64,000 nucleotides of DNA from Pseudomonas fluorescens. GTDB taxonomy: Bacteria > Pseudomonadota > Gammaproteobacteria > Pseudomonadales > Pseudomonadaceae. The notes below the pieces were generated by a model that made no database searches, was not told where the DNA came from, and saw only the letters and a list, made by a program, of their open reading frames with translations. Shown here piece after piece: positions 1,559 through 30,519 of this stretch; position 1 is the first letter of the stretch; each line of letters opens with the position of its first letter. The DNA lies in NCBI RefSeq assembly GCF_001708445.1, contig NZ_CP015637.1, forward strand, positions 3,287,001-3,351,000, in the 5' to 3' direction. Position numbers and translations under genes: made by a program.

Positions 1559-2500
1559 ATGACTCAACCGATTGTCGTGGCGGCACTGTATAAGTTCGTC
1601 ACCCTCGAAGATTACGTTGCGCTGCGCGAGCCCCTGCTGCAGGCGATGGTCGACAATGGCATCAAAGGCACCTTGCTGATCGCCGAAGAAGGCATCAACG
1701 GTACCATTTCCGGCAGCCGCGAAGGCATTGACGGCCTGATGGCCTGGCTCAAGAACGACCCGCGCATGGACGACATCGACCACAAAGAGTCGTACTGCGA
1801 CGAGCAGCCGTTCTACCGCACCAAGGTCAAGCTCAAGAAAGAGATCGTGACCCTGGGCGTCGAAGGCGTCGACCCGAACAAGAAGGTCGGCACCTACGTC
1901 GATCCGCAGGACTGGAACGCGCTGATCAGCGACCCCGAAGTGTTGTTGATCGACACCCGTAACGACTACGAAGTGTCCATCGGCACTTTTGAAGGCGCGA
2001 TCGACCCGAAAACCACCAGTTTTCGCGAATTTCCCGACTATATCAAAGCCAACTTCGACCCGGCCAAGCACAAGAAGGTCGCCATGTTCTGCACCGGCGG
2101 CATTCGTTGCGAAAAGGCCTCGAGCTACATGCTCAGTGAAGGCTTCGATGAGGTCTACCACCTCAAGGGCGGCATCCTGAAGTACCTCGAAGAGGTGCCG
2201 CAGGCAGAGACCAAATGGCAGGGCGACTGCTTTGTGTTCGACAATCGCGTCACCGTGCGCCACGACTTGAGCGAAGGCGACTACGATCAATGTCATGCCT
2301 GCCGCACACCGGTGAGCGTGCAAGACCGCGCATCCGAGCACTATGTGGCGGGCATCAGTTGCCCACATTGCTGGGATAAGCTGCCGGAGAAAACCCGTCG
2401 CAGCGCGATCGACCGGCAAAAGCAGATTGAGTTGGCCAAGGCCCGCAATATGCCGCACCCGATCGGCTTCAACTACAAGCAAACTCCTTCCGAGGCCTGA
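1559..2500 (+). CDS. trhO: tRNA uridine(34) hydroxylase TrhO (rhodanese family, YceA-type)
   Basis: 313 residues. It has an N-terminal acylphosphatase-like domain (about 1-95, with [17 protein letters not shown]), a rhodanese domain (about 120-220) with the active-site loop [11 protein letters not shown], and a cysteine-rich tail (CHACR near 244, ISCPHCW near 265). TrhO proteins form 5-hydroxyuridine at tRNA position 34 using O2, the first step to cmo5U/mo5U; the catalytic cysteine of the rhodanese loop is present. The start ATG follows a GGAGA ribosome-binding site. The dsbA-like gene begins three bases after the stop, suggesting coupling. Confidence 0.95.
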
Positions 2501-2503
2501 GCC

Positions 2504-3139
2504 ATGTCCGCGCGCCTGCTCTATGTAATGGATCCTATGTGTTCCTGGTGCTGGGGCTTTGCCCCGGTGGCGCAGGCGCTGGTTGAGCAGGCCCAGGCGG
2601 CCGGCGTGGAGCTGCACCTGGTGGTGGGCGGCTTGCGCACTGGCAGCGGCGCGGCGCTGGAGCCGACGACCCGGCGCTATATCCTGGAACACTGGCAGGC
2701 GGTCACCGACGCCACCGGGCAGACGTTCACGTTCGAAGGCGCGCTGCCCGACGGTTTTGTCTACGACACGGAGCCAGCGTGCCGTGCAATTGTCACTGCG
2801 CGCAGCCTGGCGCCGGATTGCGCGTGGAAACTGCTGGGCCTGATCCAGCATGCATTTTATGTCGAGGGGCGCGATGTGACCCTCGCCAGTGTGCTGGTGG
2901 AACTGGCCGAGGAGGCCGGTATCCCGCGTATCGAGTTTGCCGGCGCTTTCGACCGCGCCGAGCAGCATGCCGCTACCGCCGCCGATTTCACCTGGGTGCA
3001 GGACCTGGGGATCGCCGGTTTCCCGACGCTGCTGGCCGAGCGCAATGGCCAGTTGGCGTTGCTGACCAATGGCTACCAGCCGCTCTCCGAGCTGTCGCCT
3101 CTGCTCGCCCGATGGCTGGAGCGAGCTGCCTGTGCATGA
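2504..3139 (+). CDS. DsbA-family thioredoxin-fold protein
   Basis: 211 residues without a signal peptide. The N-terminus carries the thioredoxin-fold motif DPMCSWCWGF (CxxC near residues 13-16), and the cis-proline loop AGFPTLL lies near residue 175. This arrangement matches cytoplasmic DsbA-like (FrnE-type) dithiol oxidoreductases; the substrate is unknown. It sits between trhO and an ABC exporter gene whose GTG start overlaps its stop by eight bases. Confidence 0.85.
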   Translation: MSARLLYVMDPMCSWCWGFAPVAQALVEQAQAAGVELHLVVGGLRTGSGAALEPTTRRYILEHWQAVTDATGQTFTFEGALPDGFVYDTEPACRAIVTARSLAPDCAWKLLGLIQHAFYVEGRDVTLASVLVELAEEAGIPRIEFAGAFDRAEQHAATAADFTWVQDLGIAGFPTLLAERNGQLALLTNGYQPLSELSPLLARWLERAACA

Positions 3140-4949
3140 TCAGCCCGACCTAACGCCCACCCCTCGTGTCGACCGCTTGACCTGGGCGGAGATCCGCCGC
3201 CTGGCCCTGCGTCACAAGAAATCCCTGTGGATCGCCAACGGTGTCGCCGTCCTGGCGACCCTGTGCAGCGTGCCTATTCCGCTGCTGTTGCCGCTGTTGG
3301 TCGACGAAGTGCTGTTGGGCCACGGCGATGCCGCGCTCAAGGTGATGAACCACGCGTTGCCCCTGGGTTGGCAAAAGGCCGCTGGGTATATCGGCTTGAT
3401 GCTGCTGGTGACCTTGGCCCTGCGCTGTGGTGCGCTGGTATTCAACGTGGTGCAGGCGCGTTTGTTTGCCCGGCTGGCCAAGGACATCGTCTACCGCATC
3501 CGCGTGCGCCTGATCGAACGGCTCAAGCGTATTTCCCTGGGGGAATACGAAAGCCTGGGCAGCGGCACGGTCACCACGCACCTGGTCACCGACCTGGATA
3601 CGTTGGACAAGTTCGTCGGCGAAACCCTCAGCCGTTTCCTGGTGGCGATGCTCACCCTGGTGGGCACGTCGGCCATCCTGGTGTGGATGCATTGGCAACT
3701 GGCGCTGCTGATCCTGTTGTTCAACCCGCTGGTGATCTACGCCACGGTGCAGCTGGGCAAGCGCGTCAAACACCTGAAGAAACTGGAAAACGACAGCACC
3801 TCGCGCTTTACCCAGGCGCTGACCGAAACCCTCGATGCCATTCAGGAAGTGCGCGCCGGTAACCGCCAGGGCTTTTTCCTCGGGCGCCTCGGCCAGCGTG
3901 CCCAGGAAGTGCGGGACTACGCCATCCACTCCCAGTGGAAAACCGACGCCTCCAGCCGCGCCAGTGGCTTGCTGTTCCAATTCGGCATCGACATCTTCCG
4001 TGCGGCAGCGATGCTGACGGTGCTGTTCTCCGACCTCTCCATCGGCCAGATGCTCGCGGTATTCAGCTACCTGTGGTTCATGATCGGTCCGGTGGAGCAG
4101 TTATTGAACCTGCAATACGCCTACTACGCGGCGGGCGGGGCGCTGACGCGGATCAACGAACTGCTGGCACGCGCCGATGAGCCGCAATATGCCGGCGGCC
4201 AAGACCCGTTTGCCGGGCGCGAGACGGTCGGCCTTGAAGTGCGCGGCCTCACGTTCGGGTATGGCGAAGAACGGGTGCTCGATCAATTGAACCTGGCCAT
4301 CGAGCCGGGGGAGAAGGTGGCAATCGTCGGCGCCAGTGGCGGCGGCAAAAGTACTCTGGTGCAACTGCTGCTGGGGCTCTACACGCCGCAAGCTGGCAGC
4401 ATTCGTTTTGGCGGCGCCACCCAGCAGGAAATCGGCCTGGAGACCATTCGCGAGAACGTCGCGGTGGTGTTGCAACACCCGGCGCTGTTCAACGATACCG
4501 TGCGGGCCAACTTGACGATGGGGCGCAGCCGCACGGACCAGGCGTGCTGGCAGGCCCTTGAAATCGCCCAGTTGGATGCGACCGTCAAGGCGCTGCCCAT
4601 GGGGTTGGATAGTATCGTCGGTCGCTCAGGCGTGCGCTTCTCCGGCGGGCAGCGGCAACGCCTGGCGATTGCGCGCATGGTGTTGGCCGAGCCGAAAGTG
4701 GTGATCCTGGATGAAGCCACCTCCGCCCTGGACGCCGCCACCGAGTACAACCTGCACCAGGCGTTGGCGCGGTTTCTCAGTGGCCGTACTACACTGATCA
4801 TTGCCCACCGGTTGTCAGCAGTGAAGCAGGCAGACCGGGTGTTGGTGTTCGATGGTGGGCATATCGCCGAAGATGGCGACCATCAGCAACTGATCGCCGA
4901 CGGCGGCCTGTACGCCAAACTTTACGGGCACCTGCAACAAGTGCGTTGA
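3132..4949 (+). CDS. ABC exporter, fused permease and ATPase
   Basis: 605 residues from the GTG at 3132, which has GGAG ten bases upstream and overlaps the preceding stop; a longer frame begins inside the dsbA-like gene but has no good ribosome site. An N-terminal six-helix exporter domain (about 20-320) is followed by an ATPase domain (about 345-600) with Walker A GASGGGKST, signature SGGQRQRLAIAR, Walker B VVILDEATSALD and H-loop IIAHRLS. This is a half-size ABCB-type exporter that would work as a homodimer in the inner membrane. The substrate is unknown. From knowledge of P. aeruginosa, a similar exporter gene lies next to rbdA (PA0860-PA0861), which supports synteny. Confidence 0.92.
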   Translation: MHDQPDLTPTPRVDRLTWAEIRRLALRHKKSLWIANGVAVLATLCSVPIPLLLPLLVDEVLLGHGDAALKVMNHALPLGWQKAAGYIGLMLLVTLALRCGALVFNVVQARLFARLAKDIVYRIRVRLIERLKRISLGEYESLGSGTVTTHLVTDLDTLDKFVGETLSRFLVAMLTLVGTSAILVWMHWQLALLILLFNPLVIYATVQLGKRVKHLKKLENDSTSRFTQALTETLDAIQEVRAGNRQGFFLGRLGQRAQEVRDYAIHSQWKTDASSRASGLLFQFGIDIFRAAAMLTVLFSDLSIGQMLAVFSYLWFMIGPVEQLLNLQYAYYAAGGALTRINELLARADEPQYAGGQDPFAGRETVGLEVRGLTFGYGEERVLDQLNLAIEPGEKVAIVGASGGGKSTLVQLLLGLYTPQAGSIRFGGATQQEIGLETIRENVAVVLQHPALFNDTVRANLTMGRSRTDQACWQALEIAQLDATVKALPMGLDSIVGRSGVRFSGGQRQRLAIARMVLAEPKVVILDEATSALDAATEYNLHQALARFLSGRTTLIIAHRLSAVKQADRVLVFDGGHIAEDGDHQQLIADGGLYAKLYGHLQQVR

Positions 4950-5020: not shown

Positions 5021-7483
5021 ATGAAGCAAAAGCGGACTCTCGGAACGCCACGGTTGTTGGGCATTGTCTGGCCATTTATCGCCGTCGTGCTGTTCCAGGC
5101 ATTGTTGGGCAGTGTCAGTCTCTACGTACTCTCGGCCGTGCGTGGTTATGTGGCCGGCGAAAGCCTGTGGTCAAAAGGCCAGAAGGACGCCATCTACTAC
5201 CTGACCCTGTACGCCGACAATCGTGACGAAGCCACCTTCCTCAAATACCAGCAGGCCATCGCCGTGCCCCAGGGCGGGCATGAGCTGCGTATCGCCCTGG
5301 ACCGGCCCATACCCGATCTCTCCGCCGCACGCCTGGGGATCCTCAAGGGGGGCAACCATCCGGATGACGTCTCCAGCCTGATCTGGTTGTACCTCAACTT
5401 TCGCCATTTCAGTTACCTGGAAAAAGCCATCGAGTTGTGGACCGTGGGGGATGGCTACCTGGTGCAACTGGATGACCTGGCCCAGACGATGCACCGCGCA
5501 ATCACCACCCACCAGGTCAGCGGCGACGCTGTGCGGCAATGGAAAGCCCAGATCTTTGCCATCAACGACGGCGTGACGCCGGCGGCCAAGGCGTTCAGTG
5601 ATGCCCTGGGCGAAGGTTCGCGATTTATCCTGCGGCTGTTGATGATTACCAACCTGGCCACGGCCCTGGGCCTGATCGCCCTGGCTTTGCTGCGCACCCA
5701 TAAGTTACTGCGCCAGCGTCATGCGTTCGCCGATGCCCTGGAATTGGAAAAGGAGCGGGCGCAGATCACTCTGGAATCGATCGGGGACGGGGTGATCACC
5801 ACTGATGTCAATGGTGCCATTGCCTACATGAACCCGGCGGCCGAGGCGCTGACCCACTGGAAATCGTCCCAGGCCCAGGGCCTGCCCCTGGCTTCGCTGT
5901 TCAATTTGCTGGATGAAGACGCCCAGCCCGATGGATTTACCCTGATCGAGCACATCACCAAAGGCCAGCTCAGCGGTGGCAGTGAACACTCCAAAACCAT
6001 TCAGCGCCTGGACGGCAGCACCGTCTCGGTGACCCTGGTGGGCGCGCCGATCCGTAGCGCCGGCAAGGTCAGCGGGGCGGTGCTGGTGCTGCACGACATG
6101 ACTCAGGAGCGCCAGTACATTGCCAATCTGTCGTGGCAAGCCACCCACGATGCCCTGACCGGCCTGGCCAACCGCCGCGAATTCGAATTCCGCCTGGAGC
6201 AGGTGTTGCAACAGGCCGCGCGCCAGCAAAGTGGGCGCCACGCCTTGATGTTCCTCGACCTGGACCAGTTCAAGCTGGTCAACGATACCTGCGGGCATGC
6301 GGCAGGCGACGAACTGCTGCGCCACATCTGCGCCTTGTTGCAATCGGACCTGCGGGAGGGCGACACGCTGGCGCGCCTGGGCGGCGATGAGTTCGGTATT
6401 TTGCTGGAGAACTGCCCGGCGCCGGTGGCGGAAAAAATCGCCGAAAGCCTGCGCCATACCGTGCAAAGCCTGCATTTTGTGTGGAAGGGGCGGCCGTTCA
6501 TGACCACGGTCAGCATTGGCCTGGTGCACCTCTCACACGCGCCGACCACCTTGGAGACATCGCTGCGGGCCGCCGATATGGCGTGCTACATGGCCAAGGA
6601 AAAGGGCCGCAACCGCGTGCAGGTCTACCATGCCGATGACTCTGAGCTGTCCTTGCGTTTCGGCGAGATGGCCTGGGTGCAGCGCCTGCACATGGCCCTG
6701 GAAGAAAACCGTTTCTGCCTGTATGCCCAGGAAATCGCAGCCTTGGGCCATACGGACCCCGGTAACGGACATATCGAGGTCCTCCTGCGCCTGCATGATG
6801 AGGCCGGTCGGATCATTCTGCCGGACAGCTTTATCCCGGCAGCCGAACGTTACGGCCTGATGACCTCGCTGGATCGCTGGGTGGTTGAGAACGTGTTCAA
6901 GATCATCGCCCGCTGCATGCATGAGCGTCCGGGCCAGCCCATGGCCATGTGTGCGATTAATCTGTCGGGAATAACCATTGGCGATGACGATTTCCTGGGG
7001 TTTCTACGTGACAAATTCGCGGCTTACAGCATTCCTGCGGAAATGATTTGTTTTGAAATAACTGAGACCAGCGCTATTGCCAATTTGGGTAGTGCAATTC
7101 GCTTTATTAATGAACTCAAAGCGTTAGGTTGCCATTTTTCACTCGACGACTTTTGTGCCGGAATGTCCTCATTCGCTTATCTGAAACATTTACCTGTAGA
7201 CTTCCTGAAGATCGATGGAAGTTTCGTAAAGGATATGCTGGACGACCCGATTAACCGCGCCATGGTCGAAGTGATCAATCACATCGGCCACGTCATGGGT
7301 AAGCGCACAATTGCCGAGTTTGTTGAAACACCGCTCATTGAACAGGCGTTACTCGAGATTGGTGTGGATTACGCTCAGGGCTACGTGATTGAACGCCCGC
7401 AGTTGTTTACCCCTGATAGCTTGCAGTGTCGACCTGTGCGGCCGCAGCCCCTGTTATTCAAGGCGCCCGGCACATTCCGCTGA
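5021..7483 (+). CDS. rbdA: RbdA-like membrane PAS-GGDEF-EAL protein
   Basis: 820 residues from the ATG at 5021, which has AAGGGA upstream; a longer in-frame start at 4979 has no better support. Two N-terminal membrane helices (about 15-37 and 200-220) bracket a periplasmic segment. A PAS domain follows (about 245-360), then a GGDEF domain with intact LARLGGDEFG, then an EAL domain. The EAL signature reads E-V-L-L-R, which fits ExLxR, and the DDFG motif reads DDFCAG. The metal/catalytic blocks INLS, FEITET and FLKIDGSF are kept. RbdA in P. aeruginosa is a dual-domain phosphodiesterase that lowers c-di-GMP and promotes biofilm dispersal. The gene symbol rests on architecture and neighbours. Confidence 0.82.
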   Translation: MKQKRTLGTPRLLGIVWPFIAVVLFQALLGSVSLYVLSAVRGYVAGESLWSKGQKDAIYYLTLYADNRDEATFLKYQQAIAVPQGGHELRIALDRPIPDLSAARLGILKGGNHPDDVSSLIWLYLNFRHFSYLEKAIELWTVGDGYLVQLDDLAQTMHRAITTHQVSGDAVRQWKAQIFAINDGVTPAAKAFSDALGEGSRFILRLLMITNLATALGLIALALLRTHKLLRQRHAFADALELEKERAQITLESIGDGVITTDVNGAIAYMNPAAEALTHWKSSQAQGLPLASLFNLLDEDAQPDGFTLIEHITKGQLSGGSEHSKTIQRLDGSTVSVTLVGAPIRSAGKVSGAVLVLHDMTQERQYIANLSWQATHDALTGLANRREFEFRLEQVLQQAARQQSGRHALMFLDLDQFKLVNDTCGHAAGDELLRHICALLQSDLREGDTLARLGGDEFGILLENCPAPVAEKIAESLRHTVQSLHFVWKGRPFMTTVSIGLVHLSHAPTTLETSLRAADMACYMAKEKGRNRVQVYHADDSELSLRFGEMAWVQRLHMALEENRFCLYAQEIAALGHTDPGNGHIEVLLRLHDEAGRIILPDSFIPAAERYGLMTSLDRWVVENVFKIIARCMHERPGQPMAMCAINLSGITIGDDDFLGFLRDKFAAYSIPAEMICFEITETSAIANLGSAIRFINELKALGCHFSLDDFCAGMSSFAYLKHLPVDFLKIDGSFVKDMLDDPINRAMVEVINHIGHVMGKRTIAEFVETPLIEQALLEIGVDYAQGYVIERPQLFTPDSLQCRPVRPQPLLFKAPGTFR

Positions 7484-11777: not shown

Positions 11778-11853
11778 TCCGCGATAGCTCAGTTGGTAGA
11801 GCAAATGACTGTTAATCATTGGGTCCCTGGTTCGAGTCCAGGTCGTGGAGCCA
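11778..11853 (+). tRNA. tRNA-Asn (anticodon GTT)
   Basis: 76 bases ending in encoded CCA. The acceptor stem TCCGCGA pairs with TCGTGGA. The D-arm GCTCAGTTGGTAGAGC, anticodon loop with GTT and T-arm GGTTCGAGTCC are all normal. The promoter lies at 11741 and a terminator at 11863. Bases 11800-11853 recur at 30429-30482 in a copy lacking the 5' part, marking this gene as the probable integration target of the island to its right. Confidence 0.97.
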
Positions 11854-12533: not shown

Positions 12534-14255
12534 ATGTGGCGTTCGGTACCCCGGACCAGGCTCAGTCTGCTGTCCGCTTTTTTTTGCCTGGGTTTCGCCG
12601 GGACGGCTCAAGGTGCGACCCCGCAGGATACGCCGGGCGTCACTGATCTGATCCGTGATCGTCAGGATCGCCTGCTCGAAGAGCAACAGCGCCGCCTCGA
12701 AGAACTCAAGGACCTGCCCGGCAAAGCCGCCGCGCCTGCCAAACCGACGGCGCCGGCGGACACCCGCTGCTTTGCCATCAACACCATCGAACTCATCGGC
12801 GCCGACGCGCTGTCCGAAGGCGAGCGTGATCGCCTGCTCAAGCCCTATATCGGCCAGTGCCTCGGCGTACCGCAGCTCAATGATCTGCTCAAGGTCATCA
12901 CCGACTACTACCTGGCCAAAGGTCTGGTCACCAGTCGCGCCTACCTGCCGCAACAGAACCTCTCCAGCGGCAATCTCAAAGTGCAGGTGGTGGAAGGGCG
13001 TCTGGAAGGCATGAAGGGCGCCGAGGGCAGCGGTATCACCGATCGCCAGCTGTTTATGAGCTTCCCAGGCAAACCAGGCGCTCTGCTCAACCTGCGCGAG
13101 ATCGAGCAGATGGTCGACCAACTGAACCGCCTGCCATCGAACCAGACGCAGATGGAATTGGCCCCCGGCAAAGAAGTGGGCGGCAGCGAAGTGCTGGTCA
13201 AAAACACCCCGCAGAAACCCTGGCGCGTCGGCCTGTCACGCCACAATGGCGGCCAACGCAGCACCGGTGAACAGCAGTGGGGTGCGAGCCTCGATTGGGA
13301 CAATCCGCTGGGCCTGGCCGACCAACTCTCGCTGCGCGGCGGCCACGATGCGATCAGCGATCACCAGAAAACCTCGCGTAACTCGATGCTCAACTACAGC
13401 CTGCCGTTCGGCTGGTGGAACTTCAATTACACCTACAGCGAAAGCGAATACCGCTCGCTGGCCCAGGCCAGCGGCTTCAACTTCAAGCAATCGGGCGACA
13501 GCCAAAACCACCAACTGCGCCTGGAGCGGGTGATCCACCGCGACGCCCTGAGCAAAACCTCCCTGAGCACCGGTGTGGCCTACCTGCGCACCAACAATTT
13601 CATCGAAGACAGCAAACTCGCCCTGAGCAGCAACCGCCTCAGCGAAGCCCAATTTGGCATCAACCACGGTCGACGCATTGGCGGTTCGTTCCTCAACATC
13701 GACCTGGGCATGCAGGACGGCATCGGCGCCTTCGACGCCCAGGCCAACCACAACCCGCGCCCCGGCCAGGCCGATGCGCGCTATCGCAAATACACCGCGA
13801 CCCTGAGCTACCTGTACCCGTTCAAGCTGTGGGGCGAGTCGTTCAGTTTCAGCAGCCTGATGACCGGCCAGCGCAGCGAAGACGTGCTGTTCAGCCCGCA
13901 ACGCATGAGCCTGGGCGGGCAGTCGTCGATTCGTGGCTACAAGGATCAAAGCCTGTCCGGCGACAGCGGCGGCTACTGGCGCAACGACCTGCGCTGGAGC
14001 CGCCCGGTGACCTGGGCCTGGATGCAGCCGGTGTTCAGCGAATACGGCACCAGCCTCGGCTACGACCAGGGCGTGATCAGCCATGGCCGCTACAACGCCG
14101 AACAGCACGGGCGCATGACCAGCAACTCCGTGGACTTGTTCGCGCGCGGCCAGAACGTCGCCGCCACGGTGACCTTTGCACACTCTTTGGAACGCCCGGG
14201 GCCGATCACTGAACGTGAAGCGCCGATCTATTTCCGCCTGGATTTCTTTCTTTAA
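12534..14255 (+). CDS. cdiB: CdiB, outer-membrane two-partner secretion transporter (ShlB/FhaC family)
   Basis: 573 residues. A signal peptide ends near AQGA (about 27). It is followed by a charged helix (RDRQDRLLEEQQRRLEELKD), two POTRA domains (about 70-240) and a 16-strand Omp85-like barrel. The barrel keeps the L6-loop motif, here SIRGY (VRGY in FhaC), in the block MSLGGQSSIRGYKDQSLSG, and ends in an outer-membrane C-terminus FRLDFFL with terminal aromatic/hydrophobic residues. It would recognise the TPS domain of the following CdiA and export it unfolded. The start ATG has AGAGGG upstream. cdiA begins 33 bases after the stop: order cdiB-A-I, the E. coli-type arrangement. Confidence 0.95.
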   Translation: MWRSVPRTRLSLLSAFFCLGFAGTAQGATPQDTPGVTDLIRDRQDRLLEEQQRRLEELKDLPGKAAAPAKPTAPADTRCFAINTIELIGADALSEGERDRLLKPYIGQCLGVPQLNDLLKVITDYYLAKGLVTSRAYLPQQNLSSGNLKVQVVEGRLEGMKGAEGSGITDRQLFMSFPGKPGALLNLREIEQMVDQLNRLPSNQTQMELAPGKEVGGSEVLVKNTPQKPWRVGLSRHNGGQRSTGEQQWGASLDWDNPLGLADQLSLRGGHDAISDHQKTSRNSMLNYSLPFGWWNFNYTYSESEYRSLAQASGFNFKQSGDSQNHQLRLERVIHRDALSKTSLSTGVAYLRTNNFIEDSKLALSSNRLSEAQFGINHGRRIGGSFLNIDLGMQDGIGAFDAQANHNPRPGQADARYRKYTATLSYLYPFKLWGESFSFSSLMTGQRSEDVLFSPQRMSLGGQSSIRGYKDQSLSGDSGGYWRNDLRWSRPVTWAWMQPVFSEYGTSLGYDQGVISHGRYNAEQHGRMTSNSVDLFARGQNVAATVTFAHSLERPGPITEREAPIYFRLDFFL

Positions 14256-23200: not shown

Positions 23201-26200
23201 AGCGGCGGCCAATGAAGACTACAGCTTCTACAGTAAGGTCAAGAAAAGCTCGTCGGGTAAAAAGAGTCGACTGGATGAGATCGCCAGTACCACCAATATG
23301 GCCAGCTCGGTCACCAGTGGGATGAACAGCACGCTGGTTGCGGGTAATGATCTCATCGTCAAGGGCAGTGAGGTCGCCGCCGACAAGGGCGCAGCCAAGC
23401 TAGTCGCCGGTCATGATGTGCAGATTGTTGCGGTCACCGATTCCAATAGTGCTCGGCATGAAAGCAGCAAGAGCAAAAGCAGCTGGGGTGGGTTGAAGTC
23501 GAGCAAGGTTCAGGATGCGGTTTCTGAGACGCAGACCATGGCAAGGGGCAGCATTATCTCGGGTAACACCGTGGATGTGGCGGCTCTGCATGATGTCACG
23601 GTGAGAGGCTCCGGACTGGTCAGTACCCAGGACCTGAAGGTGCAGGCCGGTCGTGACCTGGTGATTGATGCGGCGCAAAACACGTTCACTCACAGTGAAA
23701 TGCACAAGCAGAAAAATCGAGACCTGACCGGTGTGCTGACGGCCAACAACCTGGGCATTGATGACATCACCGGCAATCAGCATCTGTCCATCAGCAGCCA
23801 GAACCATACCGGTCAGTCCGCTCAGACCACATTGACCGGCAGCACCGTCGGTTCGAGCCAGGGCAATGTTGTGCTCACTGCAGGGCGTGAGCTGAGCGTA
23901 ATCGCCAGCGATCTGGTCAGTACCAAAAACATGAACCTGACGGGGGCCAACGTCAACATTGCCGCTGGCATGGAAAGCGCCAGCCAGAGCAGTACCGACA
24001 AGTCCAGCAGCCTGGCAGTGGGCCGAGTGGTTGGCGGCGCTGTCGTGGATACCTTCAACTCCATCCGTGGCGCCATCAAGGCGGCGAACAACGCCGATGA
24101 CCCCAAACTCAAGGCTGTGAAGCTGGCGCAGGCCGCGCTGGCTGCTTACAACCTGAACGGTATGAGTGATTCGGTTTCCGAGGGCATCAAGGACTACGCC
24201 AACAACAAAGGCGGTTCCAGCAATGGCTCATTAATAAAAATCGGTACTGAAACAGCGCTGACCCACAGTAAAAGTACTAGCGAATATGAAAGCCAGACGG
24301 CCAAGCAGAGCTCGCTCAACGTAGGCCAGGCCCTTGCTATCGAAGCCACGGGAAAGGCACTGGGCACGGTAGGTGATATCCATGTCATCGGCAGTAGCCT
24401 GAAGGCGGCCGAGACTGCACTGATCGCCAAGAACGACATCATTCTGGAAAGTGCGCAGAACACCGCTGACTGGGCAAACAAGAACTCCAACAACAGAACG
24501 GCCATAGGCGCCAGCTTCAATATTGGTCAGCAGAATGGTTTTACCATCGACCTGGGTGCCCAGATCGCCAAGGGCATGGGTAACGGTAGTTCGGTCACTC
24601 AGGTCAATACCACGCTGGATAGCGGTGCACTGACGTTGCACAGTGGCAAAGACACCACCCTTGATGGCGCGCAGGTGCGAGCCAACAAGATTGATGCACT
24701 AGTCCAGGGCAACCTGAATATCACTTCGCGCCAGGACTCCGAAACCGAAAAGAACAAGCAGGGCAGTGCGGGTGTGGGCGCCAGTATCTGCATTCCGCCG
24801 ATCTGTTATGGCGCTCCGGTGACGGCATCGGCCAGCCTTTCCGCCGGCAACATGAAAAGTAACTACCAGGCTGTTACGGACCAGAGCGGTCTGTTTGCGG
24901 GCAATGGTGGTTACAACATTGTTGTCGGCGCCAACACCACGCTTAAAGGGGCAGTGATTGCCAGTGATGCGACGGCCGACAAAAACCTGCTCAGCACCGA
25001 CCGATTGATAACCAGCGACATCAAGAACAAGAGCGACATCGAGAGTTCGTCTGCCAGCGTCAGCGGTTCCGCCAGTTATGGAGGGGCGGGTGGATCGGCG
25101 GCTTCCTTGGGCGGCCTGTTCGGCATGTCGCTCAATGAGTCGGACAGTAGCAAGACCCGAAGTGCGGTCAGCGAAGGCACGATCATTGTACGTAACGCCG
25201 AAGGAGCTAACGACCTGGTTGGCTTGAACCGTGACACCGCCAATGCCAACGAAAAACTGGATCGCCCTGACAAAAAGGCGATTGAAGAGCGCATGGAGCT
25301 GATTCGTAGCTCTGTGGAGTTGGTCAATGGCATCTCGGATGCAATTGCCACGGCCAAGATGAAGGCCGCCAAGGATCCGAACAGTGATGAGTCGAAGGCG
25401 GCACGTCAGCAGCTACTGGAGAAGGGCACCGCCAATCCGACTCCTGATCAGATCGATCAACAGGTCAGTCAGAACTATGGCGTCGGTAGCAGCTTCAAGA
25501 AAGCGTCTCAGGCGGTCAGCGCTGTTGTCCAGGGAATCCTGGGTGGGAACATTGGTGGTGCGTTGGCTGGCGCCGCTGCGCCCTATGTGGCTGAAAGAAT
25601 CAAGAAGGCTACCGGGGACGACGACGTCGCGAACCTGATGGCACATGCGGTGTGGGGAGCGGTACTAGCCAAAGCTCAAGGTAACTCGGCGTTGGCGGGC
25701 GCTGCGGGAGCAGGTATTGGTGAATACATCGCCAAACAGTTGTATCCGAATAAACCTGTTGATCAATTAACCGAGTCGGAAAAGCAGACGATATCGGCTC
25801 TATCAACATTGGCTGGAGGACTGGCGGGTGGGCTGGCCGCTGGAGGCTTGAACAACGCGATTGCCGCTGCAGGGACCGCTAAAAACGCGGTCGAGAACAA
25901 CCATCTGAACCCGATCGAAGACGCCTCCCTGGAGATAATGCGAAAGGAGTACAACTCGTCGTGCGTGGGAGTTTCGTCAGATGAATGCACAAAACTGAAG
26001 GCTGATATTGAGGCTTTGTTCAAGAAGGCCCAAAGCATACTTAAAGACGAAACCATCAGCTTGGCAAGTGATGCGACCTGGGACTCCAAGCTGGATCACA
26101 AACCTGGCGACATCGTCATGTGCAAGACGTCCTATACCTCGTTCTGTGTAGTTACAGATCAATTTGTGAAAACCGCTGACGGTAACGAGTGGTATCTGAA

Positions 26201-26852
26201 GCCGGCGACCGTCGAACAGGCATTGGAAGGACGAGCGAATCAGGAGAAAATGGCGAGCGACCTGAAAGCGTCGCTTAAGCAGTTTGCTGATGATTCTTTC
26301 AGTGAAGGCTGCGGTGGGATGGGCCTAATTGGCATTGGATGCCAGCTTTCGATGGCATTTGGTGTCACTAACCCGGTTACAGAGGCCAAAGCGACTACTG
26401 GAGAGAGAATTGGTTGGTTTGCGCAAGCGCTTCTGAATATAGTGGGGCTGAAGGCTGCTGTTGGTGGTGCTGCGGCGGAAGGTGCAAAAGGGACTCCTGC
26501 TTGGGATAACGCTATATCTAAAGCTGACGGAGACTTCGGGTATCTCCCGCCTGTCCGGCAAAACTATGTTAAAGATGTTTACGACTTACAAGGGGCTGTG
26601 GACAAGATGCGTGCTAGCGGTGCAAGCGCAGAAGACGTTGCAAAGTATGCGTATGGCGCAAGAAACGAGCTGAAAATGAAGTACAGGGAGTATACACCTC
26701 CGGAAATGCTTGATGTCATTGATGCAAGAAACTTGGAGCGATATGGCAACAAGATTGGACCCGCATTTGATGATCTAGTTAAAAAAGGTAAAACTTTTGA
26801 TCAGATAATTGAAAGTTCTACTCGGGCTGGCGGTGGAGACCTTTTTCAATGA
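14289..26852 (+). CDS. cdiA: CdiA, giant contact-dependent growth inhibition toxin (filamentous haemagglutinin family)
   Basis: 4187 residues. An extended signal peptide ends near LAQA (about 47). The TPS domain (about 48-300) has SQL...NPYGVTCDGCGFINT. Then come FHA-type beta-helix repeats (LDNxxGxLxSxxxL, about 330-2160), including a 330-residue internal duplication, and an irregular receptor-binding-like region (about 2200-2690, starting YPCIESPNYAGDC). A second repeat block of GRDVxLTAGRDV type follows (about 2700-3560), and a PT-VENN pretoxin domain ends in AVENNHLN (VENN at 3868-3871). The 193 residues after VENN contain hydrophobic helices and look like an entry domain. The toxin itself probably starts at GAK (4065) and is 123 residues. 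Its end, ARNLERYG ... FDQIIESSTRAGGGDLFQ, resembles toxin tails of enterobacterial CdiA proteins; its activity is not established here. The cdiI start overlaps the stop by four bases. Confidence 0.95.
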   Translation: MDVRQFAFLARQPSAALKSRSNFLGLPKRGLALVLANAMFWQPLLAQADGIVVSAPGTTLGQAGNGVPIVNIAAPNGNGLSHNQFQDYNVGQQGVILNNATGRTQSTQLGGIILGNQNLNGTAASVILNEVNGGSPSQLRGYTEVAGQSAHVIVANPYGVTCDGCGFINTPQATLTTGKAVIENGQITRYQVDQGSVAIEGAGLNASNVDQFEIITRSAKINAEIQAKNLTIIAGANDVDAKTLKATARAADPASKPQLAIDSSALGGMYAGAIKLVSSEAGVGVKLDGKMVASSGDMQLDASGNLSLVDTAAAGAVNIKADNLQAKGPVYAGTTLDVKTQGDLTSQNNLVAKDRITLTSGGQLRNNGIIESGVNADNTRNATGDVSISAQSLNNTGKNIIASRDLVVNATQTLTNQGGTLSGQTTTLNAQTLDNQNNGRVLSVSALKVTADEVFNTLGVITSSGDLTANVGHLNNHNGELSSAGNTTVNASSLDNSDGQVTGDVALNIGLIGALNNQNGVLGSGQRVSITAASLDNSHNGSLVSDGGLTARIAGLFDNQNGDLSAKGAVDLQTGSLDNRNGSLSGKDRLTLRSDSLDNRTGNVRATNDLQLNVGQLDNRQKGLLNSQAAINFTGTQLDNRGGLLSAVGPMRLDAASTDNGGGRIASQTNLIANVAQFANQGGELVAQGALTLNGKVLDNRGGGLVGATKALQLNVDAVDNRGGEISSAVDVSLQGSQLNNSDNGKILAGTDLALRVAQIINQTKGQLFSKGATTVVGQSLDNSGGNLVTQQGLDIRLDNALSNVAGLISSEGTLAVNAGSLDSTGGNLSSAGALALTTKGVLKNQGGSISTDGTLTLNSAILDNSRKGQISGKNATVVTTGVFDNTQAGQLISGDTLDLSATQVSNGVASRIASDKALTASVTGFDQQGGQLFSKTSLSLDLNQGQLNNQNGLINAPLLMLKNLKDINNQGGEISSAQAFALDARNLDNGNGKLISNQGLTLRLEQWLTSVKGLISAQTLDLQSARLDNTGGLISSRGTLGVTVGGQVVNQGGTLIADGDMQISADSLDNSDGGQVVAQGALALTVDHVINRAKGLLSGKTDLTLIGQDLDNSGGSLLSQKNLKAGLSGDLTNSQGLLSAEGRLDVTAASLSNTLGSLSAAGPLTLTTTGVVLNQGGVIVTDAGLVLNSASLDNSNKGSISSKGAVRVNTGVLDNSHNGRLNSGDTLDLTATQLTNQDSGRIASSGALTANVTGLDQQGGQLFSNTALTLDVNRGQLNNQNGLISAPLLMLKNLTDINNDGGEISSVQAFNVTARSLNNSNGKLLSNQALTLRVDQALANLKGLIAAATLDVKAGSLDNSGGTLTSRANLDVNLDGLLNNQNKGLINATNGLTINSRGINNQSGSLLGSAIAIDFGAATADLDNSGGLITTAGVLSIQHLRDLSNRNGEISSTQSLDLSARALDNTGGKLISSNVLTVNADAVQNLGGLLSGWQGLSLTSNNLDNRNKGTLSSRDGDVSVAVSGAVLNSGEGAIVSRKNLSLNAVDLDNSNGGVISSGGAQTLTLSGLLKNAQGGLIDSDAALVIQAMTLGNAGGTVNAQQGLSFTGTALDNTGGNLVGNAAVTLDLLGVLTNTNGKLASVGPLRVQRSTQIDNQGGQLASQGLMTLLTGGLDNRNRGTVAANDLLTITTPGVVQNDADGLIYSQSGDLQVQAGSLSNGKGTLQSQGALTLTTGADINNQSGRIIAKTGDLSVSAGNVDNRGGVLSSLQSAFTAQLTGVLKNGYDLNNNRQGGVTQAQRLNLTALGGIDNYGGRVSAQSGDAIITTGNFDNRNGGLYAKGKINVTGNDFDNSGDNDGQIAGQQIDLNLSGALNNRLGIIESDSTLAIKAASLDNQTGQLRVLGGSGKTDFQIGGLFDNRNGTLESANTNLSLAAGGFLNDGGSLLHVGDGTFDISTANVTGAGGSIVTRGGLTLNADSWSNSNVIQAARLNVNVNNFTQTASGQLLASTSLVGSGGNWTNDGLIASDGALSLNLGGTYAGNGRLSSLGTLGLSAGQVSLNAASSIAGGGDTTVSVGGQLNNVGRLTSATNLIVNAAGINNQGTLGSGQGLTVTTGALVNDHGLIFSGADMSLRLDTLNNSYADIYSLGNLSIDRDGQGGLATSVINSSSSIQSDGNLSLAASTLQNVRAVLTTSAGGIYTASITEYPCIESPNYAGDCSGKQNHLWQIDQREKLEVTAASAGSSITAGKNLNIAGGDVLNASSTIGAAGNLNITANNLTNSGVETGETETWRLFVSERTRNAGMWYDAAAAFNNRYAIGGAGYNPKDLSGLVGAMSSFIGMTEQERTVLRRVTKISTGDQTYAAVIQAAGAVNIKAQDGIDNRVARPGFTYVGAGAKTTTGSAGASGAGAFSTRVTVNQQLPPNLAQQQVNPLTLPGFALPTGQNGLFRLSGQGSSTPVASGPQSWTMGSASVSPTQRQQVLPSVQPPNIQLGNDAQASASGVDLTAAGHQASNVNVGASAINVSPPAASAEGSALPGRSTAFTINRVQGLPASSGQSTPHKYLIETNPVLTDLKQFMSSDYLLSNLGYNPDQSAKRLGDGFYEQNLIQQAVVARTGQRFIDGQTSDEGMFKYLMNNAVASKQELNLQLGVSLTSEQVAALTHDIVWMENAEVNGEQVLVPVLYLANANNRLAANGALIQGSDVTLIAGKDLSNAGTLKASNNLSATAGNDLVNSGLVEAGNRLDLLAGNNLINKAGGVIAGRDVSLTAGRDVINERTVTTHESGSSYRTERTDFVDNAARIEAANGLTVNAGRDVNNAGGVLKSGKDTTISAGRDVNLVSAEQVTSGVRGLYTSQGITQYGSTVDAGQDLKVSAGRDVTAIASQLAAKRDVSMSAVGDLTLASAADEQHSYGKTKKVTSQEDHTQQVATSVSAGGNVVLAAGKDLGLIASKVSAGNEAYLSAGANLTLQAAANEDYSFYSKVKKSSSGKKSRLDEIASTTNMASSVTSGMNSTLVAGNDLIVKGSEVAADKGAAKLVAGHDVQIVAVTDSNSARHESSKSKSSWGGLKSSKVQDAVSETQTMARGSIISGNTVDVAALHDVTVRGSGLVSTQDLKVQAGRDLVIDAAQNTFTHSEMHKQKNRDLTGVLTANNLGIDDITGNQHLSISSQNHTGQSAQTTLTGSTVGSSQGNVVLTAGRELSVIASDLVSTKNMNLTGANVNIAAGMESASQSSTDKSSSLAVGRVVGGAVVDTFNSIRGAIKAANNADDPKLKAVKLAQAALAAYNLNGMSDSVSEGIKDYANNKGGSSNGSLIKIGTETALTHSKSTSEYESQTAKQSSLNVGQALAIEATGKALGTVGDIHVIGSSLKAAETALIAKNDIILESAQNTADWANKNSNNRTAIGASFNIGQQNGFTIDLGAQIAKGMGNGSSVTQVNTTLDSGALTLHSGKDTTLDGAQVRANKIDALVQGNLNITSRQDSETEKNKQGSAGVGASICIPPICYGAPVTASASLSAGNMKSNYQAVTDQSGLFAGNGGYNIVVGANTTLKGAVIASDATADKNLLSTDRLITSDIKNKSDIESSSASVSGSASYGGAGGSAASLGGLFGMSLNESDSSKTRSAVSEGTIIVRNAEGANDLVGLNRDTANANEKLDRPDKKAIEERMELIRSSVELVNGISDAIATAKMKAAKDPNSDESKAARQQLLEKGTANPTPDQIDQQVSQNYGVGSSFKKASQAVSAVVQGILGGNIGGALAGAAAPYVAERIKKATGDDDVANLMAHAVWGAVLAKAQGNSALAGAAGAGIGEYIAKQLYPNKPVDQLTESEKQTISALSTLAGGLAGGLAAGGLNNAIAAAGTAKNAVENNHLNPIEDASLEIMRKEYNSSCVGVSSDECTKLKADIEALFKKAQSILKDETISLASDATWDSKLDHKPGDIVMCKTSYTSFCVVTDQFVKTADGNEWYLKPATVEQALEGRANQEKMASDLKASLKQFADDSFSEGCGGMGLIGIGCQLSMAFGVTNPVTEAKATTGERIGWFAQALLNIVGLKAAVGGAAAEGAKGTPAWDNAISKADGDFGYLPPVRQNYVKDVYDLQGAVDKMRASGASAEDVAKYAYGARNELKMKYREYTPPEMLDVIDARNLERYGNKIGPAFDDLVKKGKTFDQIIESSTRAGGGDLFQ

Positions 26853-27157
26853 AGAGATTTATTGATGATAACGTTTATGCTCTTGGCCGTATGAAATCTG
26901 GAAGGTTGTATGCGGAGCTGATTTCTGATGTGGGCTGGGAAGGTTTCCCTAACTATGCGGAGGAGTTCATTAAGCTGTTCTCTGGCAGTATCATTAGTAA
27001 AAATGATTCTGTTGATACTAGAGTTTGGGGCGTGATTATAAAAGGTCAGTCCCTGCGATTGGTTTACGAAGACTTTCCCGTGATGATTAGTTTGGAGTCG
27101 CAAAGTGAAGGGGGGGACCGATTTGTCGAGGAGCTAAGAGAGATTTTGATAAGCTAG
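26849..27157 (+). CDS. cdiI: CdiI immunity protein for the CdiA toxin
   Basis: 102 residues, acidic and cytosolic with no membrane segment. It starts in an ATGA overlap with the cdiA stop, the usual coupling of toxin and immunity genes. The sequence (NVYALGRMKSGRLYAELISD ... WGVIIKGQSLRLVYEDFPVMISLE) looks like the immunity partners found beside CdiA toxins with the IIESxxRxGGxDL tail. It would bind and block the 123-residue toxin in the producing cell and in siblings. The GC content is much lower than in cdiB or the body of cdiA, as expected for an exchanged module. Confidence 0.88.
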   Translation: MKRFIDDNVYALGRMKSGRLYAELISDVGWEGFPNYAEEFIKLFSGSIISKNDSVDTRVWGVIIKGQSLRLVYEDFPVMISLESQSEGGDRFVEELREILIS

Positions 27158-27162
27158 GTTAG

Positions 27163-27519
27163 TCCTTCGGCGCAAAAGATGTAGTACCTGATCCAGGTAA
27201 GACCGCTGTATATTCTTCGACGGCTGAAGACGGCACTGTACAGTATGTTGGTATTACCGATAATCTTGAGGCGCGGTCAGCGGCACACTTATCCCAGAAA
27301 GGCATTGAAATTGATGCAATACCAGGTCTTCAGAATATATCTCGCAGTGATGCAAGGGCAGTTGAGCAAGTGTTGATCGAATACAACGACTTAGGTAAAG
27401 ATGGCGGCTCATTGATCAATAAGATCAACAGTATCTCCACAGCTAATCCGATTTATGCGGAGTCTCTCGCTAGAGGTGCCGCTCTTTTGAAATCAATTGG
27501 ATATCCAGGGTTTAAATAA
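27163..27519 (+). pseudogene. Orphan CdiA toxin module 1, GIY-YIG nuclease-like, no start codon
   Basis: 118 codons are open from just after the cdiI stop, with no usable start. They begin SFGAKDVVPDPGKT; the word GGCGCAAAAG (27169-27178) encodes GAK, as at the toxin boundary of full-length cdiA. The body AVYSSTAEDGTVQYVGITDN followed by LEARSAAH has the V-Y ... Y-V-G-I-T ... R...H layout of GIY-YIG nucleases. It ends SIGYPGFK. Such orphan toxins are silent unless recombined onto a cdiA body. The nuclease call is by motif only, and no partner C-terminal fold could be tested. Confidence 0.72.
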
Positions 27520-27971
27520 TGATCAAAATTGGAGATGTATTTGCCATCGCAACTACGAGTGGAAAAGCATATTTCCAGTTTGTGAAAAAAATCCCTCCTA
27601 TGGGTTCTTTAATCCGTGTCTTGCCAGGTACGTATCATGACGAACCAGATTTGGATGTCTTGGTAGAGGAAAAAACAAATTTCTGGATTTTTTTTCCTGC
27701 CTCGGCAGCTCTGAAGCAAGGAATTATCCAAAAAGCTAATAGTTGTACTGTTCCAACGCACTCTAAGGAGACCCCAACTTTCCGTGCTGGAGTAGTGGAC
27801 CCTTCAACTGGGCGTGTCGATGCTTGGTGGTTTTGGAACGGGGAGAAAGAATGGAAAGTTGGCGAAATTACAGAAGAGCAGCGGAAGTTTCCTATACGTG
27901 GAACATGGAACGACACTCTATTGGTCCAGAGAATTGAAGAGGGCTGGTTGCCGGAAAAGGATAGGCGTTAA
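27519..27971 (+). CDS. Orphan immunity protein 1, Imm26-like
   Basis: 150 residues. The ATG shares one base with the stop of the preceding toxin module (TAATG). The N-terminus MIKIGDVFAI ... GKAYFQFVKK, the acidic and aromatic body, and the WWFWNGEKEWKVG block fit the Imm26 family of polymorphic-toxin immunity proteins, cytosolic beta-rich proteins. It should neutralise orphan toxin module 1. Whether it is expressed depends on read-through from cdiA or a promoter I cannot identify. Confidence 0.72.
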   Translation: MIKIGDVFAIATTSGKAYFQFVKKIPPMGSLIRVLPGTYHDEPDLDVLVEEKTNFWIFFPASAALKQGIIQKANSCTVPTHSKETPTFRAGVVDPSTGRVDAWWFWNGEKEWKVGEITEEQRKFPIRGTWNDTLLVQRIEEGWLPEKDRR

Positions 27972-27986
27972 CTCTATCGGTTTTAG

Positions 27987-28484
27987 TCGCATGTTGGTGC
28001 AAAAGGAGGGCCAGCGAGTAATCTGAATGCGACGAGTGCTATAACAGACGCTGAGGCTGGAACCAGTGGATTGGCAAAGATAGGTTCTTTGAAGGGAGAG
28101 CCTGAGCTGCCACCAAAAAATGCAAGTCCGGACATGATTCGATCAATTGAGCGTCAAAATGAAGCTTCGAAGGGGCTTGCTCAAGCTGGATATGATGTTG
28201 AGCAGTTGGCAAATTCTGGGAAAAAAGGAGCCAACCCTGATTTGCGGATTAATGGTGAACTAGCTGATGTTTTCTCGCCAATCACCAATAGCCCAATTTC
28301 AGTGCTGAAAACAATAACCGGTAAAGTTGAGACTCAGGCTAGCAATATTGTTGTGAATTTGGCTGACTCTCCATTGACCTTTGATCAGATAGAAAGTGCA
28401 CTGCGCTCGAATCCTGTCGAAGGTTTGAAAAAGCTTTATTTGATGAAGGGCGGGGAATTTAGGGTGATAGGGGCTGCGAAGTGA
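27987..28484 (+). pseudogene. Orphan CdiA toxin module 2, CdiA_C tRNA-nuclease-like
   Basis: 165 codons are open from 27987 to the TGA at 28482, without a proper start. The word GGTGCAAAAG (27996-28005) encodes GAK near the beginning (HVGAKGGPASNLNATSA). The C-terminal part has SIERQNEASKGLAQAGYDVEQL ... NPDLRINGELADVFSP ... QASNIVVNL. That is the pattern of the CdiA_C domain, whose characterised Burkholderia members are tRNA nucleases with a PD-(D/E)xK fold; the acidic D of NPD and a later D/E are present. An internal TTG at 28071 could give a shorter product, but there is no ribosome site. Confidence 0.72.
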
Positions 28485-28873
28485 CAATTACAATGAATCT
28501 TGAGATTGAAGTTGGAGTTTCCTTTGAAGAAATTGCTTCAGTGCTCTCAGTGATGGGGGCTGAGCACGCAATTGAAAGTGGTTATCTAACAGGTAACTTT
28601 AAATATTCAGGTGTTTATTTTGTATTTCGTTGCTTTAGTACTCCTGAGGACGTTGCTGCTGAAGGGGTTGATGTTGATTGGAAAGCAGGTATGAGTGGAG
28701 CGTTTCATTGTCCTATAAAATATTTGCTGGAGAGTTCTGAGGATATTAAGTCTTTCCTTACGAAGCTGTCGATAGAGACGGATTTTAAATTTGTTCTTTC
28801 TTTTCAGTACGAAAGCTTGTATGTGATTCGTGATGAGTTTGGTATTAGTTTTCTGAGAAACATGGTTGATTAG
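28481..28873 (+). CDS. Orphan immunity protein 2
   Basis: 130 residues from a GTG that overlaps the toxin-2 stop (GTGA); an ATG at 28493 is an alternative start. It is acidic and has no signal or membrane helix. I do not recognise the family by sequence. Position and overlap identify it as the immunity partner of toxin module 2. The low GC content, with many TTT/ATT codons, differs strongly from the core genes. The next orphan module starts right at its stop codon. Confidence 0.65.
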   Translation: MTITMNLEIEVGVSFEEIASVLSVMGAEHAIESGYLTGNFKYSGVYFVFRCFSTPEDVAAEGVDVDWKAGMSGAFHCPIKYLLESSEDIKSFLTKLSIETDFKFVLSFQYESLYVIRDEFGISFLRNMVD

Positions 28874-29094
28874 TTGGTGCAAAAGCAACTGGTGGCGCTG
28901 CTGGAAAGGTAGATGATCTTGCCTCTACTGGGACACCTGTTCGTCCCACACCCCAAAAATCTGAAATTGATGTCGGCGCTGATCTTGGTGCTGGAGCTCG
29001 CCCACAAGTCAGTTATAAAAATGGACAAGAAGTTCCTTACGGCACTTCGGGTAGTGTTCGTCCAGACTGGTGTGTAGGTAACGTATGCAGTTAG
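28874..29094 (+). pseudogene. Orphan CdiA toxin module 3, truncated
   Basis: 73 codons are open from immediately after the immunity-2 stop, again with GGTGCAAAAG (28876-28885) encoding GAK at the start (VGAKATGGAAGKVDD). The end, SYKNGQEVPYGTSGSVRPDW followed by CVGNVCS, is the N-terminal part of a widespread toxin type in which an acidic (E)VKNY motif would be expected next. Here a TAG ends it at 29092, so the catalytic part has been lost. No start codon. Confidence 0.68.
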
Positions 29095-30428: not shown

Positions 30429-30519
30429 AGCAAATGACTGTCAATCACTCGGTCCCTGGTTCGAGTCCAGGTCGTGAAGCCAGATAGGAAAAAGCCTGCA
30501 GAGATGCAGGCTTTTTTTC
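30429..30519 (+). repeat. tRNA-Asn remnant and terminator copy (candidate attR)
   Basis: Bases 30429-30482 match the last 54 bases of tRNA-Asn (11800-11853) with four changes, one of which turns the anticodon GTT into GTC. They are followed by a copy of the tRNA terminator (AGCCTGCA GAGA TGCAGGCT plus T-run, 30493-30518). The 5' acceptor strand and D-arm are missing, so it cannot make a tRNA. It marks the right edge of the island. Confidence 0.8.

Follow-up and report, generated by a model that had tools for sequence, protein, structure and literature searches.

A 64,000-nucleotide stretch of the Pseudomonas fluorescens chromosome (assembly GCF_001708445.1, contig NZ_CP015637.1, positions 3,287,001 to 3,351,000), termed here the window, carries a contact-dependent growth inhibition (CDI) locus in which the large cdiA gene is followed by three further toxin modules. 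The locus raises the question of where one toxin is replaced by another at the C-terminal end of CdiA, and by what means. A preliminary description of the window pointed to a 10-base word that marks the toxin border within cdiA as well as the heads of the three orphan modules, and proposed that it is a recombination junction for toxin replacement. Comparison across many species supports this proposal. In the form GGTNCAAAAG, the word is very probably the junction at which toxin-immunity cassettes from a pool common to the genus Pseudomonas are exchanged.

Recurrence and composition of the ten-base word

GGYGCAAAAG is found exactly four times in the window, always on the forward strand, at 26481, 27169 (as GGC), 27996 and 28876. 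This compares with 0.58 sites expected from dinucleotide shuffling, and none of 100 shuffles reached four. Gly-Ala-Lys is encoded in frame at all four sites; in cdiA these are residues 4065–4067, which lie 193 residues past the VENN motif. The orphan frames begin 11, 24 and 2 bases past the stops of the preceding open reading frames (ORFs), i.e. just behind putative immunity genes. All three start at the word and carry neither VENN nor the entry region. On these points the preliminary description was accurate. It also called the orphan frames start-codon-less, which is correct for their heads, but module 2 has a possible TTG start at 28071. Its view of the word as fixed holds in that the word is conserved at module heads, but position 4 is by far the freest and the word is better written as GGTNCAAAAG. 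The idea of a rare genomic word was discarded: the 6.64-Mb chromosome contains 51 sites of GGYGCAAAAG and 47 of its reversed form. Because the word is common genome-wide, the signal lies in its clustering and position. GGTNCAAAAG shows 22 chromosomal sites versus 95 for the reversed control, three of them in this locus and 19 elsewhere.

Loci for comparison (L numbers) were taken from 398 Pseudomonas genomes, 17 of which carry relatives of the entry region and 82 of which carry PT-VENN. The first set consists of 93 loci, namely stretches around entry or PT-VENN matches, two named loci and the window (L025, L038 and L043 excluded). The addition of L238, from a sister genus, gives 94 loci, and a hold-out of 40 DUF637-type CdiA loci (DUF637 is present in 189 of the 398 genomes) gives 134. 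An unbiased strand count of all 10-mers in the 93 loci ranks GGTGCAAAAG first, with 71 sense versus 4 antisense sites (38 and 4 loci, respectively). Other high-ranking 10-mers could stem from conserved CdiA-body coding sequence, whereas GGTGCAAAAG is found in unrelated contexts. In the hold-out, GGTGCAAAAG is seventh among strand-biased 10-mers, and GGTNCAAAAG has 42 sense versus 1 antisense sites, spread over 22 of the 40 loci.

In the 94 loci there are 111 sense versus 4 antisense sites of GGTNCAAAAG, which reads Gly-[Ala/Pro/Thr/Ser]-Lys. The base at position 4 is G at 72, C at 22, A at 13 and T at 4 of the sense sites (antisense 4, 0, 0 and 0), which makes residue 2 Ala, Pro, Thr and Ser, respectively. 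Sites that depart from GGTGCAAAAG at one base number, sense versus antisense, 39/0 at position 4, 19/4 at position 2 (mostly A), 16/6 at position 3, 11/3 at position 9 and 8/2 at position 6; all remaining positions show 11 or fewer. Six of the ten sites of GGTGCAAAGG are in one conserved stretch beside VENN, off junctions. By upstream context, 51 of the 111 sites are orphan-type (at most 8 codons open upstream), 49 have at least 50 codons open upstream and 11 are intermediate. Distinct flank pairs, and hence distinct junctions, account for 108 of them. The 83 modules form 61 toxin clusters; there are 17 body clusters, and the word occurs in the VENN, PT-HINT and DUF637 classes. When the 153 sites of all sets are pooled, 53 of 68 orphan-type words are preceded, within 60 bp, by the stop codon of an ORF that spans 60 codons or more. 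Word-to-word spacings in the range 200–2000 bp (n = 69) have a median of 818 bp.

The spelling of the tripeptide is constrained as well. In the 134 loci, in-frame G[APTS]K is written GGT NCA AAA in 89 of 332 cases, compared with 5.4 expected from codon usage, an excess of approximately 16-fold. The reversed tripeptide, used as a control, gives 17 of 421, which is itself over the codon-usage expectation. The wobble base of residue 2 stays A; this is built into the pattern, yet single changes of this base are rare. Since residue 2 varies with a fixed wobble base, and in view of the codon-usage excess, the conserved entity is the DNA.

Two further leads were tried and rejected. An extended form with TTAGTT ahead of orphan words is present at only 6 of 53 deduplicated junctions and is partly the immunity stop codon. 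TTAGTTGGTGCAAAAG was found in viral contigs (120 stretches) and was judged to be a chance result of the size of the collection. As separate observations, the head of one toxin in L258 (3347–3380) has two in-frame words 24 bp apart, and this locus contains eight GGTNCAAAAG sites. L040 (5977) and L042 (12615) share a near-identical stretch of about 100 bp (few differences at most) in otherwise different loci, which contains GGGGCAAAGG and no toxin head.

Cassette edges and probable exchange between loci

Cassettes begin and end at the word, the same cassette may be an orphan in one locus and joined to CdiA in another, and pairs of loci differ there by one cassette. The edges are seen in blocks of identity (at least 250 bp and at least 80%) among the 134 loci. 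An end was counted when a word lay no more than 8 bases away in each of the two loci. Among the 1451 blocks, 43 have their left end and 38 their right end at the word (81 ends in all), including 11 blocks that extend from one word to another. The blocks are not independent events; a single cassette, for instance, is common to L032, L035, L068 and L072. In the control with shifted ends, the mean count is 0.24 and the maximum 3 in 100 trials, none with both ends at a word. The reverse-complement word gives no block ends, with only 14 sites versus 176 for the word. The majority of blocks end away from any word. Chance is rejected on the basis of the window shuffles, the 10-mer ranking, the hold-out and these block ends.

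L047 provides two examples of word-to-word identity between unrelated flanks. Positions 3300–3964 match L041 positions 1487–2151 (97.4%) and positions 2489–3309 match L059 positions 5466–6299 (96.0%). Similar edges are found when words are compared pairwise (3741 pairs, anchored at the word by construction). Sixteen pairs share the DNA after the word and not before it, with exact identity reaching 0–2 bases ahead of the word. Twelve pairs share the DNA before it and not after, with exact identity reaching 0–4 bases beyond. Both flanks are shared in four pairs. At the right end of the array, four comparisons showed no common motif by eye.

As a check, the preliminary description proposed to look for orphan toxins joined to the cdiA body at this word; such joins are found, with variant words in the case of the window's own modules. 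The window cassette situated on cdiA itself (cassette 0, positions 26480–27156) is present at GGTACAAAAG on a DUF637-type CdiA body in L280, with 80.1% identity over 677 bp; this body is unrelated to the window CdiA. A relative of module 1 is part of a 3494-codon CdiA frame in L080, following GATGCAAAAG and 153 bp behind a GGTCCAAAAG. In L039, a relative of module 2 is joined at GGGGCAAAAG to a 715-codon frame with VENN and entry regions. This frame is a long orphan, and the full-length CdiA of the same genome has a different toxin. The nearest relatives of module 3 are orphans (L094, L047). Elsewhere, one cassette is found in two states in each of three pairs of loci. It is an orphan in the first-named locus and forms the C-terminus of a CdiA-type frame in the second: L035/L046, L068/L086 (with GGGGCAAAAG as the junction in L086) and L098/L099. 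The preliminary description expected only about 120–165 residues to be exchanged; this does not hold, as the exchanged unit consists of the toxin together with its immunity gene.

Two further structures are of note near junctions. L080 (1639–2139) displays, in one frame, GGTCCAAAAG, a stretch that by eye resembles the toxin start of L026, and then GATGCAAAAG with a GIY-YIG-like toxin; from this double junction, position 2 of the word may tolerate A. On the 3′ side of its main junction, L109 (4274–4860) repeats the CdiA pretoxin end over 587 bp (98.5%), and this copy ends one base after a word of the form GGTCCAAAAG.

Closely related loci part at the same place. The bodies of L104 and L106 show 98.7% identity that extends as far as the final base of the word, and beyond it the two loci differ. 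L072, L080 and L081 carry one body with three toxins that part at the word, L080 and L081 13 bases past it. The bodies of L244 and L268 are 92.8% identical up to the word, and L244 holds one extra cassette. The cassette joined to CdiA in L268 is an orphan in L244, with 97.8% identity from word to next word (block ends at most 5 bases from words). L093 and L096 show the same one-cassette pattern at the body word (first junction). Both comparisons were made without a tree, and gain is not separable from loss.

The free base of the word gives an indication of where strands may cross. If it travelled with the cassette or with the upstream flank, near-identical partners would be expected to have it in common. 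Of the pairs with the same cassette, 9 of 23 share it, as do 13 of 31 with the same upstream flank, versus a fraction of about 0.48 from base counts, and 3 of 4 with both flanks alike. Looser cut-offs on the first set give 19 of 38, 10 of 22 and 3 of 3; the pairs are not independent. Within a locus the free base is alike in 88 of 154 pairs versus 73 when shuffled (P = 0.02). The counts fit a base tied neither to the following cassette nor to the preceding flank, as would result from crossovers inside the word on either side of the base. Re-making of the base at each exchange, which the stricter counts might suggest, is not adopted, being inseparable from crossovers on either side.

In the mechanism proposed, a cassette would extend from one word to the next and consist of a toxin domain whose head lacks a start codon, followed by its own immunity gene. 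Behind the word of the cdiA entry/pretoxin region it would be translated as the CdiA C-terminus, and further down the array it would be a silent toxin with its immunity gene. A new cassette would enter at the body word and displace the resident one to the orphan part of the array. An orphan would come onto cdiA through loss of the DNA between two words. The strands would cross within the ten bases, preserving the frame. We infer both this crossing and the direction of cassette changes from the arrangements described above. The toxin-immunity pair thus appears to behave as an integron-like unit with its crossover inside the word.

Possible means of exchange

Whether a recombination activity that recognises the sequence drives the exchange is close to an even call, and it is favoured here over short homology. 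The inclination rests on the wobble positions, which are far more fixed than the residue-changing position 4, a pattern unexplained by homology alone. More specifically, a dedicated or recruited recombination activity could recognise GGTNCAAAAG and cut and join toxin-immunity cassettes within its ten bases, with one base free at each junction; this would be an integron-like system for a protein C-terminus that operates without attC and across genus borders (L238). This is offered tentatively, as somewhat short of an even chance.

Several results weigh against recognition of the word or its generality. A recombinase site with no more than nine specified bases would be short, and the pattern has the 19 other chromosomal sites mentioned above. 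No hairpin or attC-like site was found, and there is no local folding-energy minimum at 35 orphan junctions. Possible GTT/AAC arms are not coupled, with both present at one of these 35 junctions. A linked recombinase is not evident among the 45 listed families present in at least 6 loci, judged by eye without family names, where a rarer or distant one is possible (2899 ORFs of the 93 loci were clustered). The two families with the strongest restriction to word loci (7 versus 0 and 5 versus 1) are putative immunity genes, and a family found in 5 word loci and 8 others is presumably a REP-type Y1 transposase. The integron integrase model (TIGR02249) is over cut-off in none of 15 genomes, 14 of which have the word in the fetched stretches; weaker matches are found in all 15, and likewise in all 14 control genomes.

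The word is also not universal. Judged from the fetched stretches, GGTNCAAAAG is present in 48 of 82 genomes and absent from 34. The four nearest entry-domain relatives (L023, L024, L026 and L027) lose homology 16–29 bp before the word and show no GGTNCAAAAG there. Some orphans retain long pretoxin or body sequence upstream (L039, L041), and in these ordinary homologous exchange is possible. Finally, exchange is deduced from comparison of sequences, with blocks and pairs that are not independent.

In the alternative that survives best, no dedicated enzyme is required and the word is a standardised microhomology, where rare short-homology events are strongly selected. This account is nearly as likely as recognition of the word. 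The events could be slippage between repeats about 0.8 kb apart, in keeping with the median word spacing, or homology-facilitated illegitimate recombination anchored one-ended in cdiA; illegitimate recombination of this type is discussed for type VI secretion system (T6SS) modules in Kirchberger 2017 (PMC5361080). The word would be retained because only cassettes with the word fuse in frame. The lack of a hairpin, coupled arms or an evident linked recombinase agrees with this account, and the likeness of the free base within a locus fits exchange with resident words. However, a pure homology requirement would not single out one base, and the amino-acid-changing position 4 is substituted at 39 sense sites versus 16, 8 and 11 at positions 3, 6 and 9, where synonymous change is possible. 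Precision at both ends between unrelated flanks would also call for a second event of this kind or for a circle.

Exchange by ordinary homologous recombination within longer common flanks, with the word a hitchhiking relic, is improbable. In L039, L041 and L077, several frames do have about 0.08–0.7 kb of body sequence ahead of the word that recurs in a second copy within the locus. Against this, the 16 word pairs that share a cassette have unrelated upstream DNA with identity reaching only 0–2 bases before the word, as anchored by construction, and the 11 blocks that end at words on both sides were found without anchoring. Least probable, and disfavoured, is a constraint on the protein, with Gly-X-Lys serving to link the entry and toxin domains or as a processing site between them, and with DNA conservation as a by-product. 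The word does share the reading frame of the toxin, which stays open for at least 30 codons at 100 of 111 sites, yet residue 2 varies while its wobble base stays A, GGT NCA AAA exceeds codon expectation approximately 16-fold, and the word is kept in orphan frames without start codons.

The word also occurs beyond Pseudomonas. In the sister genus one of two loci has the word (L238); its cassette is common with L244 and L268, and identity begins at the first base of the word. Three of four loci from other families of the order show no GGTNCAAAAG, and the fourth (L243) has a single GGTACAAAAG at position 4835. This site is at a toxin-like junction, and the frame around it is open for 503 codons on the upstream side and for 109 on the downstream side, up to the stop. 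Confinement of the word to the family is ruled out by L243, which is from another family of the same order.

The cdi locus of the window and related systems

The window displays the features of a two-partner CDI system: a CdiB transporter, a CdiA with two-partner secretion (TPS) and haemagglutinin repeat regions, PT-VENN, and a variable C-terminus followed by an ORF (Table 1). An orphan cdiA-CT/cdiI arrangement is also present, with a start-codon-less toxin and immunity gene on the 3′ side of cdiA and a homologue joined elsewhere. The current CdiA toxin domain shows no Pfam or NCBIfam match. The DUF3630 ORF overlaps the cdiA stop and is presumably the immunity gene of the cdiA toxin, a role assigned from position. 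Orphan toxin 1 matches Pfam GIY-YIG with an E-value of 1.9e-4 and 22.1 bits, slightly below the 22.6 cut-off. Orphan toxin 3 shares 98.6% aa identity with L094:2994 across its 72 codons, where the L094 frame is open for 149 codons.

Table 1. Features of the cdi locus, in window coordinates
Feature	Position	Strand	Basis
cdiB, outer-membrane transporter of the two-partner system	12534..14255	+	Pfam ShlB 1.9e-95, POTRA domains
cdiA, 4187 aa	14289..26852	+	TPS and haemagglutinin repeats (Fil_haemagg); PT-VENN (1.8e-17) at 25758-25910
VENN motif in cdiA	25890-25901		
Entry region, VENN to word; kept on toxin exchange at the word	25902..26480	+	Sequence
Junction word 1, GGTGCAAAAG, within cdiA	26481..26490	+	L280 identity, left edge at 26480
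Current CdiA toxin domain	26481..26852	+	Same cassette on DUF637-type CdiA, L280:2068-2741
Cassette 0 immunity gene (DUF3630)	26849..27157	+	Pfam 2.7e-13; 77% aa match in L081
Junction word 2, variant GGCGCAAAAG	27169..27178	+	11 bp past immunity stop
Orphan toxin 1, GIY-YIG-like, head without start codon	27169..27519	+	60% aa relative in L080 CdiA frame
Immunity gene 1 (by position)	27519..27971	+	34% aa relative behind L080 toxin
Junction word 3, GGTGCAAAAG	27996..28005	+	
Orphan toxin 2, CdiA_C family	27996..28484	+	Pfam CdiA_C 2.4e-13; 79% aa relative, L039:8032
Immunity gene 2 (by position)	28481..28873	+	53% aa relative next to toxin in L039
Junction word 4, GGTGCAAAAG	28876..28885	+	2 bp past immunity stop
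Orphan toxin 3, cut short at 72 codons	28876..29094	+	Match to L094:2994

The locus is flanked by a tRNA-Asn gene (11778–11853) and a partial copy of the tRNA 3′ half. A 26-bp exact direct repeat (11822–11847 and 30451–30476) is found inside a longer similar stretch, an arrangement like that at the borders of islands that have integrated into tRNA genes. A second CdiA-like gene of the same genome, L043 (G000:C1:141000–159000), shows 70% aa identity over 424 residues near the N-terminus; no GGTNCAAAAG is present within the 18 kb fetched.

Integron cassettes form an ordered array with exact edges, in which the first unit is expressed and new units are thought to enter at the front. By analogy, the cassettes described here would share the ordered array, the expressed first unit, the entry at the front and the exact unit edges. 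They differ in having no attC-like hairpin, no integrase over cut-off in the 15 genomes, a site of ten bases, and a unit fused in frame to an upstream protein. The integron analogy has been raised for T6SS arrays in PMC5361080.

Poole 2011 (PMC3150448) proposes recombination at VENN, either direct or after tandem duplication. Mercy 2016 (PMC4725963) distinguishes five pretoxin classes in Pseudomonas, describes orphan modules in P. aeruginosa only, and takes up an earlier suggestion that VENN serves recombination. A review (PMC9086364) has orphans typically beginning at the pretoxin motif, and Zhang 2012 (PMC3482391) describes replacement of toxins through recombination with cassettes. The known orphan cdiA-CT/cdiI modules (PMC3150448, PMC4725963) resemble those of the window in the start-codon-less toxin and immunity gene behind cdiA, the fusion of the same modules elsewhere, and recombinational diversification. 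Their border is VENN or another pretoxin motif, with recombination proposed at that conserved coding sequence. In contrast, the modules here start at a 10-base word past the entry region, and this word is common to the VENN, HINT and DUF637 classes. It is not mentioned in the literature searched, a partial coverage with few subscription papers, and prior notice in work on P. aeruginosa CDI diversity is possible.

Two other systems show partial likeness. In the activation of orphan Rhs in Salmonella (Koskiniemi 2014, PMC3967940), a silent orphan toxin is likewise loaded onto the main gene by recombination. There the main gene and orphan share 522 bp at 95% identity, whereas the word-only orphans here share about ten bases. 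In the T6SS effectors of Vibrio cholerae, new effector-immunity pairs displace old immunity genes downstream, as proposed here. The arrays are described in PMC5361080 as recombining without specific integration sites; the cassettes reported here have fixed edges.

The usual answer to how toxins are swapped with the frame kept is recombination in conserved coding sequence; here the junction is named to the base. It can be found by plain pattern search and is testable with a reporter, and the agent of toxin exchange becomes a directly testable question. New toxin-immunity pairs are discoverable through their ends. Species with unrelated CdiA bodies draw on one shared cassette pool.

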